NCBI GenBank assembly: GCA_913058575.1
Contig: CAJXRF010000011.1
Location: 20,016-84,015, forward strand
DNA from: an uncultured Bermanella sp.
GTDB taxonomy: Bacteria; Pseudomonadota; Gammaproteobacteria; Pseudomonadales; Oceanobacteraceae
DNA: 64,000 nt
Direction: 5' to 3'
The notes beneath the pieces are model-generated. The model was not told the origin of the DNA. It searched no databases and saw only the letters and a list, made by a program, of their open reading frames with translations. Positions 55,984 to 63,939 of this stretch are shown here, piece after piece. Within the stretch, counting starts at the first letter, position 1. Each line of letters starts with the position of its first letter. Made by a program: the position numbers and the translations under genes.

Positions 55984-57474
55984 TTAGGGTGCTTTGCATA
56001 ATTGCGCTCGCCCCGGTTGGCAAACCAGTAACGTTTCAGCCTGAGGGTTAATCAAGCTTGCATGCCATTTAACTTTTTCGGTTTCCATTTCCTCAGAAAC
56101 AGTGCCAGTAGATAGATCAAGTTTTAGGTAAGCGTATTGGCTTATGCCGTTCACGTAGGCGTTATTTTTTTCTACTTTTAGCTTTGCGGGTTTTGTTGGA
56201 AAGTTACCCGCTAAGGATACTCCGCTGGTGCCCACCACCAATTGATCAGGTAATATATTCTCAGCAAAGTGCGTGCTTTGAAAACGGTGCATGTGCCCTG
56301 AAATTATTAGTTTTATTTCATCGGTTAAGCCAGTTAACGCATTGGCCTGTTGCAAGGTTTGGCTCATAGAGCAATGCTCACCCTTTTGAGGATTACCACA
56401 ACTCCCTACCTTGGCGAGTTTATCTATTCCAAACATGGGGCGATGGGTTTGCAGAATATTAAATCCCGCAGGTAATCTTTGTAGCATTTGTTTACCCAGC
56501 AAAAACTGGTTTTGGTATTGCTCTAAATTAAGTAAACCAGAATCACAGGCATTGGTTGAATCAAGTACCAGAATATTGGCCTTGCCAAGATTAAGCCCAT
56601 AGGGCTGGCTGAATATCATGGGGCTTGAATTATTGGCAGCAGGACAGCTTAATTGTTTTTGGTACTTTCCTAACAAAGGGGAGTTACTATCCAAAAGATA
56701 AAACCAGCCGGGGCCGGCGCGACTGCACAATTCATGGTTGCCTCTGGCAAATACCCAGGGTGCGCTGCTTAATAAATTTTGTGCTGGGTTAAAGAAATCT
56801 TGCTGCCAATGTTTCCAGCTGTCTTTAAATTCACTGCCTTGACTGTTTTGACCATAATAAGGCCCCGGTATTTTACACATGCCTTGAGTGGTATTGTCCC
56901 CTGCATCATAAACTTGCACTTTATCTTTTTGGCCTAAAAGGTGAACACTACCGGGAGTACCGCTGTAGTTATAGTCGCCCATATGAAGCACCACCTCAGG
57001 ACTATCTTTGGCGGCATTGTTAGCAAGGGCGTTGAAAAACCAATTATCAGAATTTAGCGTGCAAGTTTGTTTAGATGATTTACAGCCTGAGTCACCCAAT
57101 ACCGCAATATGCTCAGATTGGTATGAAGGCTTTATTAGTGCCTTATCATTTAAATACAGCTGCGCATCTTTAGGGTAAATGGCTTCACAAACTGTAATGG
57201 GGAAATCAGACGGCGCCGGATTTTGGCGGGCTTGCATAACCACTTTGTTAGTAGAAATATTATCAATTAAAGGAATGGGACAACTCATGTTTAAAGACGG
57301 CTGGATAGTGCGCAATAGGGCTATGGTATCCCCTTCTTGATCTTGCGCATATAACACGTAGCTGGTGATTTGGTTGTTACTGGTAGGCGGCTCATGGTCT
57401 ATAAAGAACGCGACACTTAACAGTGTAATTATTAGTATTATGAGTAAAAGCAGTGCTGTTTTTTTAAATGTCAT
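55984..57474 (-). CDS. metallophosphoesterase family protein
   Basis: HIAVLGDSGCK, VVLHMGDYNYSGTPG, FARGNHELC, IISGHMHRFQ. Confidence 0.88.
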   Translation of the reverse strand: MTFKKTALLLLIILIITLLSVAFFIDHEPPTSNNQITSYVLYAQDQEGDTIALLRTIQPSLNMSCPIPLIDNISTNKVVMQARQNPAPSDFPITVCEAIYPKDAQLYLNDKALIKPSYQSEHIAVLGDSGCKSSKQTCTLNSDNWFFNALANNAAKDSPEVVLHMGDYNYSGTPGSVHLLGQKDKVQVYDAGDNTTQGMCKIPGPYYGQNSQGSEFKDSWKHWQQDFFNPAQNLLSSAPWVFARGNHELCSRAGPGWFYLLDSNSPLLGKYQKQLSCPAANNSSPMIFSQPYGLNLGKANILVLDSTNACDSGLLNLEQYQNQFLLGKQMLQRLPAGFNILQTHRPMFGIDKLAKVGSCGNPQKGEHCSMSQTLQQANALTGLTDEIKLIISGHMHRFQSTHFAENILPDQLVVGTSGVSLAGNFPTKPAKLKVEKNNAYVNGISQYAYLKLDLSTGTVSEEMETEKVKWHASLINPQAETLLVCQPGRAQLCKAP

Positions 57475-57768: not shown

Positions 57769-60012
57769 TTATTGGCTGCCAGCGGGGACAATTTTACTGA
57801 ATGTAATACTTAATTGATGAACGCCAGGCTCACCGGTGACTTTTAAGAAGTCTTTGGCGTGGGGCACCGCTATGGTTTGTGCTATCTCAATGGTATTTTC
57901 CCAGCCAATCAGCGCCATCTCATCAAACGCTACCATTCCATCACCGCTTACCGGAGGGCTGTGACGTAAAAACAGCCTCACCGCTCTGGCATCCAGCTCT
58001 GGATCACCAAATTCATCTGCCGGCATATTAAGGTCACTAACAAAGGGCTGCCAGTCGAAGCTGCCGCCTGTGTGAGTCAATGCAATCTCTTCACCAAATT
58101 GTAAATCCCCTGCGCTGGCGTAATAACGGCTAACAATATTAATGTCTCCCGCATTTTCGCCCTTATAATAACCAAATAATGAAAGGTCTTTGTTGGGGGT
58201 ATTGAGCGCATCTCCCATTACCCTAATTCTGTTTCTAAAGGCCACTACAGAATCATCTGAATTATTTGCCCCCCTAACACTGCATAAACCCGCTGTGCCG
58301 CCATAAGCATGAATCATGCAAATAAAAGACGACTTACCCGAGGTATCCCAAAGGGCTGCTTCGTTATGTTCGGTGTCGGTGTCCCAATCTTCAAAATCAC
58401 CATGCTGTAACAGGTCGCGGCCCATTTGCACGCCAATGACACTGACGGCTTCGAAGGATTTAAATGACTCGCCCCATTGCTGCCATTCTCGTAAATCCAA
58501 TACCGCTATACCGGATTCAGGAATGGTAAAATCAACCGTGATGGTTCGATCAAGCGAGGTGTTATCAGATGCTGAAAGAGAGACCCAGCCGTGCCCGTTA
58601 TAGGGGTACAGTAAACCATTATAATCATGGGAGAATTCGCCGAGCCTGCGTAAAAAATCACTGGCCAGCCGGCCACTAACGAGTTTAGGTACAAATGCTT
58701 CTAAATAAACGGGCAGCAGACGCGCACTGTCAATGGCGTAACCCTCAATGTCCACTCGCCCCATCACCCCCAGCATGGTTTCTAATCGCGCTTGATCAAA
58801 CGCTAAATTGCCTAAACCCAAAAATGCAAAGGTATTATTAAAAACACCCACTCCTTGGGCTACGTGTGGGTGATGCACAACCAGCAATGGCACCTCTTCA
58901 TCCACCGCTAATTGAATTCGCCCTTGAACAAAACTAGAGGGCTCAAACGTATATTCTTTACCAGTATGGTATTGCACAATGGGAATAACATTTTCGCTGT
59001 TGACGTTTTGTATGGCGGCGGTTACGTGCTGGCTAAGGGTTAAATCGGCGGCCCCTGCTTTGTTGTCTTCTGCCACATAACTGCTGGCATGTTCAGCCCC
59101 GGTTACCGACGTCATGGATAGAAAACCATAATCATGATTATTAATGGTTTGGCGTAAAGGTAAAAAAGCTTCGGCTGAGTTTAACCCAGCGCCACTGAAT
59201 AAAATATTCGCATCGTTAAGGTGGTTTATTGTGTCGGTAAGGCCTGCATCTAAATAATCAAATACGTGATTATTTCCCAGCGACACATAATCAACCCCTA
59301 GCCAATCAATGGCAGCAAGGGACTTGGGTAAGGTAAAAAAGACAAAACTTTTTGTAGGATGGGGGGTATTGGGCGCATCGGTCACCGGTGTTTCAAGGTT
59401 AAGCACACCCCAATCGGCCTGCTGATAATAGGGGCGAAGTTGCGACAAAACGTTTCGTGTTCCGGGTTCTGGATCGCTGGCTAATATTAAGGCATCGGGA
59501 TTATCTGCCGGAATTTGATCGCTTGGGGTTACGTCAGTTGGATCTAAAAAGCGCCTTCCTAACGCCACGTCTCCACCAAAAAGCATCCGGCTTGAATTGG
59601 CTTTATGACTATTTAGTATTATCGCGGGCAGCGCCACGCTGGGCAGGTTAGCTGGGTATTGTAAATAAATAGGAATTAATTCACTGCGAAAACCGCTTGC
59701 AGATATTTCCAGAAAAATATTTTCTCGGGTTACTTGCTCAAAAATAAAAAAACCAGCTGCATCACTTGTGGTAATTAAGTTGCTGTCTTTAATGCTAATT
59801 TGGGCGCTGGCAATGGCGGCACCTGTTTTATCTCTCACTTGGCCAGTGACCGATATGGGCAGTTGCTGATACTCAACCAAGAAAGCCTGCTCTTGCTCAA
59901 GGACGCTTAACACTGAGTTCGTTTTCGAATCACTTTCGCTAGACGTATCAATACAACTCGCCACTGACATGAGCACAACAGAAAGTAATAGAAGCGATTT
60001 AAGCATGGTCAT
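57769..60012 (-). CDS. CapA-family lipoprotein with carboxypeptidase-regulatory-like domain
   Basis: Lipobox SVASC; ISVTGQVRDKTGAAIASAQISIKD; MLFGGDVALGRRF; VSLGNNHVFDYLDAGLTDTINHL; HHPHVAQG. Confidence 0.82.
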   Translation of the reverse strand: MTMLKSLLLLSVVLMSVASCIDTSSESDSKTNSVLSVLEQEQAFLVEYQQLPISVTGQVRDKTGAAIASAQISIKDSNLITTSDAAGFFIFEQVTRENIFLEISASGFRSELIPIYLQYPANLPSVALPAIILNSHKANSSRMLFGGDVALGRRFLDPTDVTPSDQIPADNPDALILASDPEPGTRNVLSQLRPYYQQADWGVLNLETPVTDAPNTPHPTKSFVFFTLPKSLAAIDWLGVDYVSLGNNHVFDYLDAGLTDTINHLNDANILFSGAGLNSAEAFLPLRQTINNHDYGFLSMTSVTGAEHASSYVAEDNKAGAADLTLSQHVTAAIQNVNSENVIPIVQYHTGKEYTFEPSSFVQGRIQLAVDEEVPLLVVHHPHVAQGVGVFNNTFAFLGLGNLAFDQARLETMLGVMGRVDIEGYAIDSARLLPVYLEAFVPKLVSGRLASDFLRRLGEFSHDYNGLLYPYNGHGWVSLSASDNTSLDRTITVDFTIPESGIAVLDLREWQQWGESFKSFEAVSVIGVQMGRDLLQHGDFEDWDTDTEHNEAALWDTSGKSSFICMIHAYGGTAGLCSVRGANNSDDSVVAFRNRIRVMGDALNTPNKDLSLFGYYKGENAGDINIVSRYYASAGDLQFGEEIALTHTGGSFDWQPFVSDLNMPADEFGDPELDARAVRLFLRHSPPVSGDGMVAFDEMALIGWENTIEIAQTIAVPHAKDFLKVTGEPGVHQLSITFSKIVPAGSQ

Positions 60013-60427: not shown

Positions 60428-61057
60428 TTAGTGTCGCTGGCAAACCATGGCCAGCCAAGGCTGTAGGTGAATGGGCTGGCCCTGAGGGCGGTAGTAATGA
60501 TGCAACACCTCAAAACCGGCTTGCTGCATACAGGCTTTACTTTGTTCATATTCCATATAATTTCCGTAGCGATTCCCCTGCCAACCTTCCCCAGAGCCCC
60601 TAGGGTTTGAAGTAAACAGTATTCCCCCTGGGCGCAGTGCTTGGAAGCACTTGTCTAACACACAAGCCAGCTCTTGGCTGGGCACATGGAACAAAGAGGC
60701 ATTGGCAAATATGCCATCAAACATCCCCTCGCCCAGCTCTAAATCTAAAAATGACATATGTAATACCGGGCACTCACTGTTTTTTTTCGCCAAGGTGCAA
60801 AATTCACCACTGCCATCTAGGCCAACTGGCTTGTGTCCCATTTTTTTAAAAGTGGAGAGATCTCGTCCTGGGCCACAACCAAAATCAAGAATGTCCAGTG
60901 CCTTATCCTTGGGCAAAGCTTGTAAAAAAGCATTTATATTCTGGCTAACATCATGGTCTTTAGTCCCCAACCAAAATGATTCGGCATTGGCATTATAATG
61001 GCCAAGGGTGATGCTTTCTATTTCATCCAGTTGGCTTGATGATTGTATTTTGGTCAT
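60428..61057 (-). CDS. class I SAM-dependent methyltransferase
   Basis: ALDILDFGCGPGRDLSTFKKMGHKPVGLDGSGEFC; FDGIFANASLFHVP. Confidence 0.92.
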   Translation of the reverse strand: MTKIQSSSQLDEIESITLGHYNANAESFWLGTKDHDVSQNINAFLQALPKDKALDILDFGCGPGRDLSTFKKMGHKPVGLDGSGEFCTLAKKNSECPVLHMSFLDLELGEGMFDGIFANASLFHVPSQELACVLDKCFQALRPGGILFTSNPRGSGEGWQGNRYGNYMEYEQSKACMQQAGFEVLHHYYRPQGQPIHLQPWLAMVCQRH

Positions 61058-61179: not shown

Positions 61180-62586
61180 TCAATAACAACCTATCACCCC
61201 ATCATAGCCAGACGAATAGCCTCGGCTCATTTCATTAAAAGAAATAGAACTTACAAAATCCTCATATTTTACCATCGTTTCTTGTGAGTTGTTTACAATA
61301 TGCGTTTTCACAATTTTCCCGTCTTCGCCGCATGAGTACATATTCGCACCTTTAACAGCCACATCTCTCACTATTCCATCATGAATATCGTAGGTATTCT
61401 CGACTGTAAAAAGCTTCAAGCACACAGATAGAACTTTACCATTCTCACAACCTATATAGGCATATTTACCGGAGACCACACAACACCTCAAGCTGCCATG
61501 GGAAAAATTCGCAGAATAAATACATTCAAGATTTTTACTATTCCAAACTTTAAAGAATCCATCACTGCCTACACTTATTAATGTGCCACTATCTCTTGTA
61601 ACACAGCGCCAACTCCAACCAGCATGGGCTTTAGCCTCATGTTTAAAAATAAGATCAAGATCCCACACCCGAATATAGCCATCGGACCCTGTCGTGATTA
61701 AGGATTGACCGTTAACCGATATACTCAGTGGGCTAGCGTGCATGGAATTCACTTTATTAACCAAAGTCAAATCTGTAGTTAATTTTGAAAAATTCCCATC
61801 CCTAGATACACTATAAATGTGATTAGCTACGCCTTCTAAGGCCAATACTGAGGATTCATGAACTTCGTTTTCAGCTAGTTTAGAAAGCTCGTAATTCCAT
61901 TTCTTTATTTTTTTATCTCTGCCCGCCGAGTAAATAGCGCCTTGATAATCCAGTACATCCCAAATGTAGCCTTTGTGGCAATGATTAACCGAAGCATCAT
62001 CTTCCTTGTTTTTAAAAATAAGGTCGCTTCTTAAAATGTATTTTTCACCCGACTGTACAGTACTGCCTTCATGCCAAATTTCATGATTAAAAATCAATAA
62101 GTCACCTTTCTTTGCCTTGTAAGTGTATGTCGGTATTTTATCGCACTTATTTTTATAAAATTTAGTTTCGCCGCCCTCGTAATTATCATTTAAATAAAGA
62201 AGAAAGGTCATTTTAGATTTTTCATTATCACTTTTATGATAAACACCATCCCGATGAATATTAAAAACTTGGCCCGCACTATATTTACAAAAACGTAACC
62301 TTGAGTTTAAAGAGCAGAAACCCGCTAAAGACTTTGCGGTTTCATTATGGTCATCGCATAACCATGTAGTCTTTTTATATAAGACATCAGCTAATACATC
62401 ATTATCTTCCCAATAACGTTCATTACTCCTGTAGCTATCTGGGTACATATCATTTGCAGATACAAAGCGGCTAAGAATAGGAGATAAAAGCGCTTCACAC
62501 TCTGAATCTTCAAAGGCATTTTTAATAATGAAGCAGCTTCCACCCACTATATTGCTAATATTTTCAATTTTGGCGTTCATGCTCAT
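61180..62586 (-). CDS. 2OG-Fe(II) oxygenase fused to C-terminal WD40 propeller
   Basis: HRD (HxD) ... NHEIWHEGS ... YILRSDL; about seven WD-like repeats; start taken at MSMNAKIENIS giving an ATGA overlap. Confidence 0.82.
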   Translation of the reverse strand: MSMNAKIENISNIVGGSCFIIKNAFEDSECEALLSPILSRFVSANDMYPDSYRSNERYWEDNDVLADVLYKKTTWLCDDHNETAKSLAGFCSLNSRLRFCKYSAGQVFNIHRDGVYHKSDNEKSKMTFLLYLNDNYEGGETKFYKNKCDKIPTYTYKAKKGDLLIFNHEIWHEGSTVQSGEKYILRSDLIFKNKEDDASVNHCHKGYIWDVLDYQGAIYSAGRDKKIKKWNYELSKLAENEVHESSVLALEGVANHIYSVSRDGNFSKLTTDLTLVNKVNSMHASPLSISVNGQSLITTGSDGYIRVWDLDLIFKHEAKAHAGWSWRCVTRDSGTLISVGSDGFFKVWNSKNLECIYSANFSHGSLRCCVVSGKYAYIGCENGKVLSVCLKLFTVENTYDIHDGIVRDVAVKGANMYSCGEDGKIVKTHIVNNSQETMVKYEDFVSSISFNEMSRGYSSGYDGVIGCY

Positions 62587-63221
62587 AATCCCTGTAATTC
62601 CCATTTAATATTCCCTCGGGCTATGTCCTCTTTTTCCTTGCGAAATAAATCTGTATTAAAAATAAATGCTCTTTTCATTAATGAACGTAAAAATTTTTTG
62701 CGCCCACGTCGATAGATAAAATTAGGGATAGGATATTCTTTTCTACAGCCCCTGGCATAAGTTTGATACTGACTTTGGCTTCCAGCCAAAATGCTAAGAT
62801 CAATATCCAAAAACAGAGCCACATCACCATCACCTCTCCCAACGTGATGCTTGGTCATCAATATCAATTCAATAACCTTTGATATAAGTGTTGCAGGTAC
62901 GTCAAGAGCCTCTAGTTCCTTACAAGCCAAACTTGCACTTAAGCCTTCGCTGTCTTTCCCTGCTAGCTGCACAGCATCGTGAAACCAAATGGCAAAATAG
63001 AAGGCTTGCTGGTTGCCAATTACAGTCTGCAATTCACCCGCTAATGCCAACATGTGCTGAATATGGCCAATGCCGTGATAATGTCTGTTAGCTGCCGTAT
63101 ATGATGCCACCAGCCTGTTAAATACCTGCAATCGGGCATCTACACTTGCCCCCCACAGCCCAGACATAGCCAACCATTGCTGCCTTAAGGCATGTAATGG
63201 CTGCGTTTCCCTGCATTTCAT
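62583..63221 (-). CDS. HD-domain predicted metal-dependent phosphohydrolase
   Basis: NRHYHGIGHIQHMLALAGEL, AIWFHDAVQ, TKHH, LDIDLSILAG; start taken at MKCRETQP (63242 also possible). Confidence 0.85.
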   Translation of the reverse strand: MKCRETQPLHALRQQWLAMSGLWGASVDARLQVFNRLVASYTAANRHYHGIGHIQHMLALAGELQTVIGNQQAFYFAIWFHDAVQLAGKDSEGLSASLACKELEALDVPATLISKVIELILMTKHHVGRGDGDVALFLDIDLSILAGSQSQYQTYARGCRKEYPIPNFIYRRGRKKFLRSLMKRAFIFNTDLFRKEKEDIARGNIKWELQGL

Positions 63222-63245
63222 ATTAACGACCTCTCGACCCATTAT

Positions 63246-63261
63246 TTGGTTGGTCAACCAA
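63246..63261. promoter_or_regulatory. candidate TetR operator O1
   Basis: ttggttggtcaaccaa, 7-bp arms. Confidence 0.55.
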
Positions 63262-63300
63262 CTTATAATTAGAATATAGAATCCACTTCCATTCTGTCAA

Positions 63301-63326
63301 GTAATTTGGTCAAATGACCAAATTAC
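63301..63326. promoter_or_regulatory. candidate TetR operator O2
   Basis: gtaatttggtca-aa-tgaccaaattac, 12-bp perfect arms. Confidence 0.75.
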
Positions 63327-63342
63327 TTATTATGGTGACACC

Positions 63343-63939
63343 ATGGGCAGACCTTCCAATAAAGAACAAAGACGTCAACAGATCACCCAAGGGTTAATGG
63401 AGACCATGGCCCACAGTGGTTACGACAAATCGTCTATTCAAGCCATTGCCAAGTCGGCAGGCCTAACACCCGGTTTAATTCACTACCATTTCAAAACCAA
63501 GCAAGAAATATTGGTAGAGTTAATCAATAACCTTAATGGCAAAGCCCAAGCACGATTTCAGGCTCGACTTGATTTGGCCTCCACCGCTACCGACAGGCTA
63601 AATGCCTACATAGATGCAGCACTGGCGCTGGGAGATGGCGCAGATGAGACCGCCGTATCGGCATGGGTAACCATTAGCTCGGAAGCAATTCGCCAGGAAG
63701 AAGTAAGAGAGGTTTATCAAGGTATTGTGGCCGCGAATCTGACCCAGCTAACCACTCTATTATCTGATTACAAAAAGGAGATGACGGGTAAGCTGGATAA
63801 GGCGGCGATTAAAGCATTGGCGAGTATGATTCTGGCGAGCATCGAAGGCTGTTATCAGTTAGCGACAACAGCAGGTGAGTTAATGCCTCGAGATTACGCC
63901 GCAAAAACATTGAAGGCATTAGTACATAGCTACACCTAA
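63343..63939 (+). CDS. TetR/AcrR-family transcriptional regulator (BetI-like)
   Basis: MGRPSNKEQRRQQITQGLMETMAHSGYDKSSIQAIAKSAGLTPGLIHYHFKTKQEILVELI. Confidence 0.93.
   Translation: MGRPSNKEQRRQQITQGLMETMAHSGYDKSSIQAIAKSAGLTPGLIHYHFKTKQEILVELINNLNGKAQARFQARLDLASTATDRLNAYIDAALALGDGADETAVSAWVTISSEAIRQEEVREVYQGIVAANLTQLTTLLSDYKKEMTGKLDKAAIKALASMILASIEGCYQLATTAGELMPRDYAAKTLKALVHSYT

Follow-up and report, generated by a model that had tools for sequence, protein, structure and literature searches.

The locus described here raises the question of why a bacterium should join a 2OG-Fe(II) oxygenase to a WD40 propeller in a single polypeptide, and on what kind of substrate such a protein might act. 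The gene lies on the minus strand at 61180..62586 (468 aa, coordinates including the stop) of the window, i.e. the whole stretch of 64,000 nucleotides of uncultured Bermanella DNA that was analyzed. Its stop codon occupies 61180-61182 and its start is the ATG at 62586; starting instead from an in-frame ATG at 62604 would lengthen the protein by six residues. The former is the better candidate, given that it shares an ATGA with the stop codon of the HD gene upstream, an overlap kept identically in a Colwellia metagenome-assembled genome (MAG) and in the genome G434. Searches with Pfam recovered, above the gathering cut-offs, a 2OG-FeII_Oxy_3 domain (PF13640; aa 99-185, E 2.6e-13, 51.2 bits against a cut-off of 27), which was also matched in five homologues, and a WD40 domain (PF00400; E 1.6e-9, 38.3 bits against a cut-off of 27). 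The sequence-only reading of this open reading frame, namely an N-terminal oxygenase of the prolyl-4-hydroxylase (P4H) type followed by WD40 repeats, is thus borne out by both domain calls and by a match to P4H structures, and the fusion is real, as further indicated by an AlphaFold2 model, Foldseek searches and full-length homologues in 17 further genomes.

The oxygenase domain occupies approximately aa 1-196 (61999..62586, minus strand), with the boundary approximated from the alignment and the model. A single-sequence phmmer search with this half gave a weak hit to the solved bacterial P4H (3itq and 5hv0; E 8e-4), and a profile of 47 sequences matched the same structures over aa 8-185 with E 1.5e-16. 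The iron-site residues are an HxD motif (H111 and D113) and a distal histidine (H172), all already recognized in the sequence-only reading. Together with K182, R186 and D188 they are invariant across 47 aligned relatives, and H111, D113, H172, K182 and R186 are likewise invariant in the 18 fusion proteins. The ligand of the 2OG C5-carboxylate is most likely K182, as it lies ten residues beyond the distal histidine, the spacing seen for the P4H lysine (H..GEKW in the P4H aligns with H172..GEKY in the fusion). The earlier choice of R186 as the 2OG-binding arginine is upheld in so far as this residue is invariant, but the ligand role is probably wrong, and R186 may serve another role. In the AlphaFold2 model the strand order and confidence of this half fit a double-stranded beta-helix, while the PDB matches listed by Foldseek were all to the propeller. 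Judged from its sequence, the catalytic half is of the P4H class, with all catalytic residues kept.

An HxGYxW motif, invariant in the 18 fusions, marks the junction with the WD40 half, which spans approximately aa 204-468 (61183..61977, minus strand; boundary likewise approximate). The AlphaFold2 model of the fusion, built from 47 sequences, has a mean pLDDT of 93.5 and a pTM of 0.87, and its strands from residue 208 onwards form six four-stranded blades and a seventh, three-stranded one. As modelled, this half is a seven-bladed propeller; the blade count made by eye therefore stands, while the label "complete" was slightly generous for blade 7. Foldseek matched it to beta-TrCP (E 5e-19) and to the designed seven-bladed propeller v13WRAP-T (TM 0.88 by target length, rmsd 1.8). 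RACK1 and Utp12 are further PDB matches of the propeller. WD40 proteins are often found on ribosomes, and these last two matches are in keeping with an enzyme that modifies nucleic acids, ribosomes or translation factors and whose propeller binds an RNA-protein particle (compare YcfD, OGFOD1 and PPHD). Such a role would also accord with L16 and EF-Tu being the known prokaryotic protein-hydroxylase targets (PMC4543633). Nevertheless, we consider it unlikely: matches of the WD40 half are of a kind expected for the fold in general, a rare TetR-controlled gene (see below) is unlike housekeeping translation machinery, and a translation gene is conserved beside the fusion only by local synteny in one group.

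A single scan of 85,462 species genomes retrieved 80 relatives, of which four are full-length fusions, from the Colwellia MAG (79% identity), Hahella sp. HN01 (35%), a Flavobacteriales MAG (34%) and a Deltaproteobacteria MAG (28%). The single-domain relatives that were measured are mostly ~180-200 aa long, in agreement with the earlier statement that bacterial P4H-like enzymes are mostly single-domain. Searching the relatives of these genomes added G434, three genomes closely related to Hahella HN01 and, near the Deltaproteobacteria MAG, nine genomes (there 10 of 192 carry the fusion, including that MAG), the fusion-bearing members of this last group probably belonging to Myxococcota. In a second Flavobacteriales genome the fusion gene is split over contig ends. 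Full-length fusions are thereby known from 18 genomes, distributed over Gammaproteobacteria, the relatives of the Deltaproteobacteria MAG and Flavobacteriales, and several of the homologues sit on long or single-contig assemblies. Full-length copies were absent from 58 relatives of the window genome, from 369 genomes of its class and from 148 relatives of the Colwellia MAG. A fusion that is common and already characterized, which the sequence-only reading had named as speaking against it, is not what emerges; neither the fusion nor the module described below is reported in the open-access literature that we searched. All 18 fusions group together in a single clade when a tree is built from the oxygenase half (bootstrap 100, SH-aLRT 99), implying that the fusion arose once in the sample studied, and the single-domain PF13640 proteins of Chitinophaga, Flavobacterium, Variovorax and others fall outside this clade.

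Single-domain 2OG relatives were also encountered on a plasmid and in a phage. On the Nostoc plasmid pCC7120alpha such a relative is split into two open frames (L023 3932-4570). Among deposited phages the sole match is likewise to a single-domain 2OG relative, which is encoded by the 595-kb phage LR756511 (L026 2995-3531) near genes that by eye resemble Sir2 and HNH genes.

Comparison of the window gene with its 79%-identical Colwellia homologue gave dN/dS values of 0.126 for the 2OG half and 0.162 for the WD40 half (~0.15 overall), and hence both halves are under purifying selection. This bears on whether the gene might have lost its catalytic function, be decaying or have arisen through misassembly. 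A decayed remnant with an internal deletion, a stop and an adjoining transposase gene is indeed known from a related genus; but 18 open full-length homologues, several of them on long or single-contig assemblies, invariant catalytic residues and a dN/dS of 0.15 leave this explanation with a vanishingly small probability and refute it for the window copy. The remnant itself lies in G020, a member of a sister genus in the same family (L002 1440-2080; G020:C1 about 2885383-2886100). Its matches, to aa 4-53 and to aa 215-344, lie in separate open frames; the oxygenase domain is mostly deleted, and the 3' end of the remnant is directly adjoined by the transposase gene, apparently of the IS256 type.

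The gene neighborhood provides further clues. The fusion is the second gene of an operon whose first gene encodes an HD-superfamily-like protein of 212 aa (62583..63221, minus strand; ATG at 63221, alternative ATG at 63242). Divergent from this operon is a gene for a TetR/BetI-type regulator of 198 aa (63343..63939, plus strand), with a TetR_N domain (44.6 bits against the Pfam cut-off of 24) and a TetR_C_6 domain. Nine other genomes have a TetR homologue next to the fusion (G434, four genomes of the Hahella group, G428, G769, G896 and G891). With the window TetR alone as the query, in the six searched genomes with a linked copy this copy scores 113-206 bits and the next best TetR at most 39 bits; in two Hahella relatives without the fusion the best TetR reaches at most 36 bits. 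Among the 369 genomes of the class no further TetR passes E 1e-15, so that the subfamily of the window TetR has no other member there. Seven other genomes have an HD homologue next to the fusion or its TetR, namely G434, two Flavobacteriales, G769, G896, G891 and the Colwellia MAG, where it is visible only as its last residues (ARGNIMWELQGL, followed by the stop) at the contig edge. The HD gene is not adjacent to the fusion in Hahella, G428 and six other genomes, suggesting that it is not always needed locally.

The order of these genes differs between lineages: in the window and G434 the TetR gene is divergent from HD-fusion, in G769, G896 and G891 the fusion is divergent from TetR-HD, and in G428 the order is fusion-TetR. 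The genes that are coupled by overlaps, usually ATGA where HD is involved, vary accordingly, being HD and fusion in the window, Colwellia and G434, TetR and HD in G769, G896 and G891, and fusion and TetR in G428 (TGATG). As the partners stay together while their order changes, shared synteny alone is an unlikely explanation of the association. The search for the same architecture and its neighborhood that the sequence-only reading had suggested thus yielded, beyond the 17 further genomes, a linkage to TetR, HD and an operator. These were not named in that reading, yet its notion of a "dedicated" system fits the fusion by virtue of the regulator, the operator and the coupled HD gene. The Flavobacteriales loci are without both TetR and operator; in one of them (G427) a cyclic-nucleotide-binding, Crp/Fnr-like regulator replaces TetR directly upstream of HD-fusion (L130 7694-8308). 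At four other loci (L158, L160, L161 and L164) the fusion lies in a conserved segment between a tyrosyl-tRNA synthetase-like gene plus a gene for a 362-aa hypothetical protein and an FtsJ/RlmE-like methyltransferase gene, all named by eye.

The intergenic region between the TetR and HD genes of the window contains two palindromes, both putative operators. The first, with the core TTGGTTGGTCAACCAA (63246..63261), is directly upstream of the HD-fusion operon, and the second, the 30-bp perfect palindrome AAGTAATTTGGTCAAATGACCAAATTACTT (63299..63328, core 63306-63321), is in front of the TetR gene. Their core pattern, TTGGKY-N4-RACCAA, for which shuffles give an expectation of 0.11 matches per 64 kb, precedes the fusion or the fusion operon at each of the 16 loci outside Flavobacteriales whose sequence extends that far, the Colwellia contig being too short to be counted. 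The genomes G769, G896, G742 and G802 each contain a single copy of it, located at the fusion gene. We infer that this element is the binding site of the fusion-linked TetR. Its placement follows the fusion gene rather than TetR: in G428, where TetR is downstream, it is found before the fusion. Likewise, six genomes in which TetR is not linked (G742, G802, G813, G807, G869 and G908) retain it in front of the fusion and are accordingly predicted to encode an unlinked TetR of the window subfamily. In these six (L158 5309-5324, L159 6251-6266, L160 5524-5539, L161 5844-5859, L163 7137-7152 and L164 5844-5859) the operator extends across the probable initiation codon of the fusion, such that TTGGTCATGCGACCAA reads L-V-M-R-P. 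Elsewhere in the window genome the pattern is matched about as often as a reversed-pattern control, and no further target is therefore claimed; the regulon seems to be confined to the module.

The HD protein matched the PHROG family "phosphohydrolase" (E 7.5e-25) and had no Pfam or NCBIfam match at threshold; its AlphaFold2 model, from two sequences only, is poor (pLDDT 53). H49, H53, the H81-D82 pair, D139 and D141 are invariant, and a metal-dependent phosphohydrolase is a candidate assignment. Diiron oxygenases of the MIOX/PhnZ type display the motif H-HD-H-H-D, with two conserved histidines between the HD and the last aspartate. In the HD protein H126 is the sole conserved histidine in this interval, and then only in the fusion-linked copies; accordingly, assignment to the MIOX/PhnZ type was rejected. 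This is relevant to the idea that the module is a 2OG oxygenase paired with an HD-domain diiron oxygenase, as in PhnY/PhnZ or TmpA/TmpB, which would cleave a C-P or similar bond. The general gene pairing is the same, and the BetI-like nature of the regulator would suit it, TmpA/TmpB acting on a choline-like phosphonate. However, such a pairing is highly improbable given the differing HD ligand pattern, the 2OG half being PF13640/P4H rather than PhyH, to which there are only weak sub-threshold matches in two homologues, and the HD gene not being beside the fusion in about half of the genomes.

Other genes near the fusion in the window were rejected as members of the module, as they have no homologue in the other fusion loci. 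Just downstream on the same strand is a SAM methyltransferase gene (60428-61057), whose weak match to the PADLOC model mad2 (3e-19) is probably generic methyltransferase similarity. Beyond it are a protein with a PGA_cap (capsule synthesis) domain, an N-terminal carboxypeptidase-regulatory-like domain and a large C-terminal part without a Pfam match (57769-60012), and an adjoining metallophosphatase-like protein of 496 aa (55984-57474), both with signal-peptide-like starts. A role in anti-phage defense found no support, since the fusion draws no PADLOC matches beyond generic 2OG and HEAT models, and HD and TetR draw none. No gene for a protein substrate is conserved beside the module.

Taken together, we propose, with a probability of about 0.5, that these genes define a TetR-controlled protein-hydroxylation module. 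The TetR would repress both the HD-fusion operon and its own gene via TTGGKY-N4-RACCAA until an inducer arrives. The propeller face would then dock a specific partner, which the oxygenase would hydroxylate with Fe(II), 2-oxoglutarate and O2, most likely at a prolyl residue, while the HD protein, probably as a metal-dependent phosphohydrolase, would work on a linked step of the same pathway. Recruitment of a protein substrate by the propeller is plausible from what is known of the family, and protein hydroxylation is the activity inferred for the fusion. A protein partner is favored as the catalytic half is closest to P4H, as most protein-acting 2OG oxygenases possess non-catalytic binding domains (PMC4543633), and as the conservation of the propeller is what an interaction surface would require. 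Purifying selection on both halves, the single origin of the fusion and its retention in distant bacteria, and partners kept in changing order also speak for the module. Counting against this reading are the lack of a conserved substrate gene at its side, the genomes in which HD does not neighbor the fusion, and the Flavobacteriales loci with neither TetR nor operator.

Alternatively, the module might act on a small molecule: TetR would sense a metabolite or xenobiotic, the 2OG enzyme would oxidize it, the HD protein would hydrolyze the product and the propeller would be a scaffold or oligomerization surface. Given that TetR-family regulators usually sense small molecules, the regulator would suit a metabolic enzyme too; TetR control with an HD-superfamily partner resembles small catabolic operons, 2OG oxygenase and HD-protein pairs such as PhnY/PhnZ and TmpA/TmpB exist, and a regulon seemingly confined to the module is also compatible with this. 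We regard it as less likely. The solved structures nearest to the 2OG domain are those of P4H, which hydroxylates proteins; the loci read show no conserved neighboring gene for a transporter or another catabolic function; and an enzyme with a purely metabolic role would give little reason for so large a propeller to be conserved by purifying selection.

If the protein-hydroxylation reading is true, the module offers a defined, inducible three-gene unit with its docking domain physically attached, from which the substrate could be fished out directly, as well as a regulator-operator pair open to testing and grounds for seeking hydroxylation-based control in bacteria. More tentatively, it might be a single-origin module shared by distant bacteria, in which a TetR acts through an operator of its own on an HD hydrolase and a prolyl hydroxylase guided by WD40; one specific partner would be hydroxylated in dependence on O2 and 2OG, as a bacterial counterpart of hydroxylation-based signalling. 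To our knowledge few bacterial protein hydroxylases have a known target, and none has a docking propeller or its own repressor. Were the module metabolic instead, the combination of enzyme and propeller would still be a new, conserved architecture whose regulator is known.

Both domains are well known, and it is their fusion and the module that are apparently undescribed. The Bacillus anthracis P4H (3itq, 5hv0) shares with the fusion the 2OG-Fe(II) class and the HxD...H...K spacing, but is a single domain of ~216 aa without a propeller, and we know of no HD gene linked to it. The closest relatives of the oxygenase half are single-domain PF13640 proteins (Chitinophaga, Flavobacterium, Variovorax and others; 30-46% identity over the best segments), which differ in being mostly ~180-200 aa and in having no propeller. 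Non-catalytic domains that guide an oxygenase to its protein target, as proposed for the fusion, are typified by OGFOD1, and also by PHF8 (PMC4543633); in these eukaryotic proteins, however, the guiding domain is a second jelly roll or a PHD finger and not WD40. PPHD of Pseudomonas, the EF-Tu prolyl hydroxylase, is similarly a bacterial P4H/PHD-like protein hydroxylase (PMC4543633), but has no reported propeller and a ubiquitous target, whereas the fusion module is rare and TetR-linked. On the side of the propeller, beta-TrCP and FBXW7 have the same seven-bladed fold, the best Foldseek match, and dock peptides for an attached enzyme machinery; yet the match is generic to the fold at ~20% identity and the machinery is a ubiquitin ligase, not an oxygenase. 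AgtA of Dictyostelium, an enzyme of the Skp1 hydroxyproline pathway, has a Skp1-binding WD40 domain, but is a eukaryotic glycosyltransferase, and the likeness is no more than a lead. Finally, PhnY/PhnZ and TmpA/TmpB resemble the module as pairs of a 2OG oxygenase and an HD-superfamily protein, from which it differs in its P4H-type (PF13640) rather than PhyH-type oxygenase, its HD ligand order and its propeller. The fusion would belong among the 2OG protein hydroxylases, rather than being a categorically new system.
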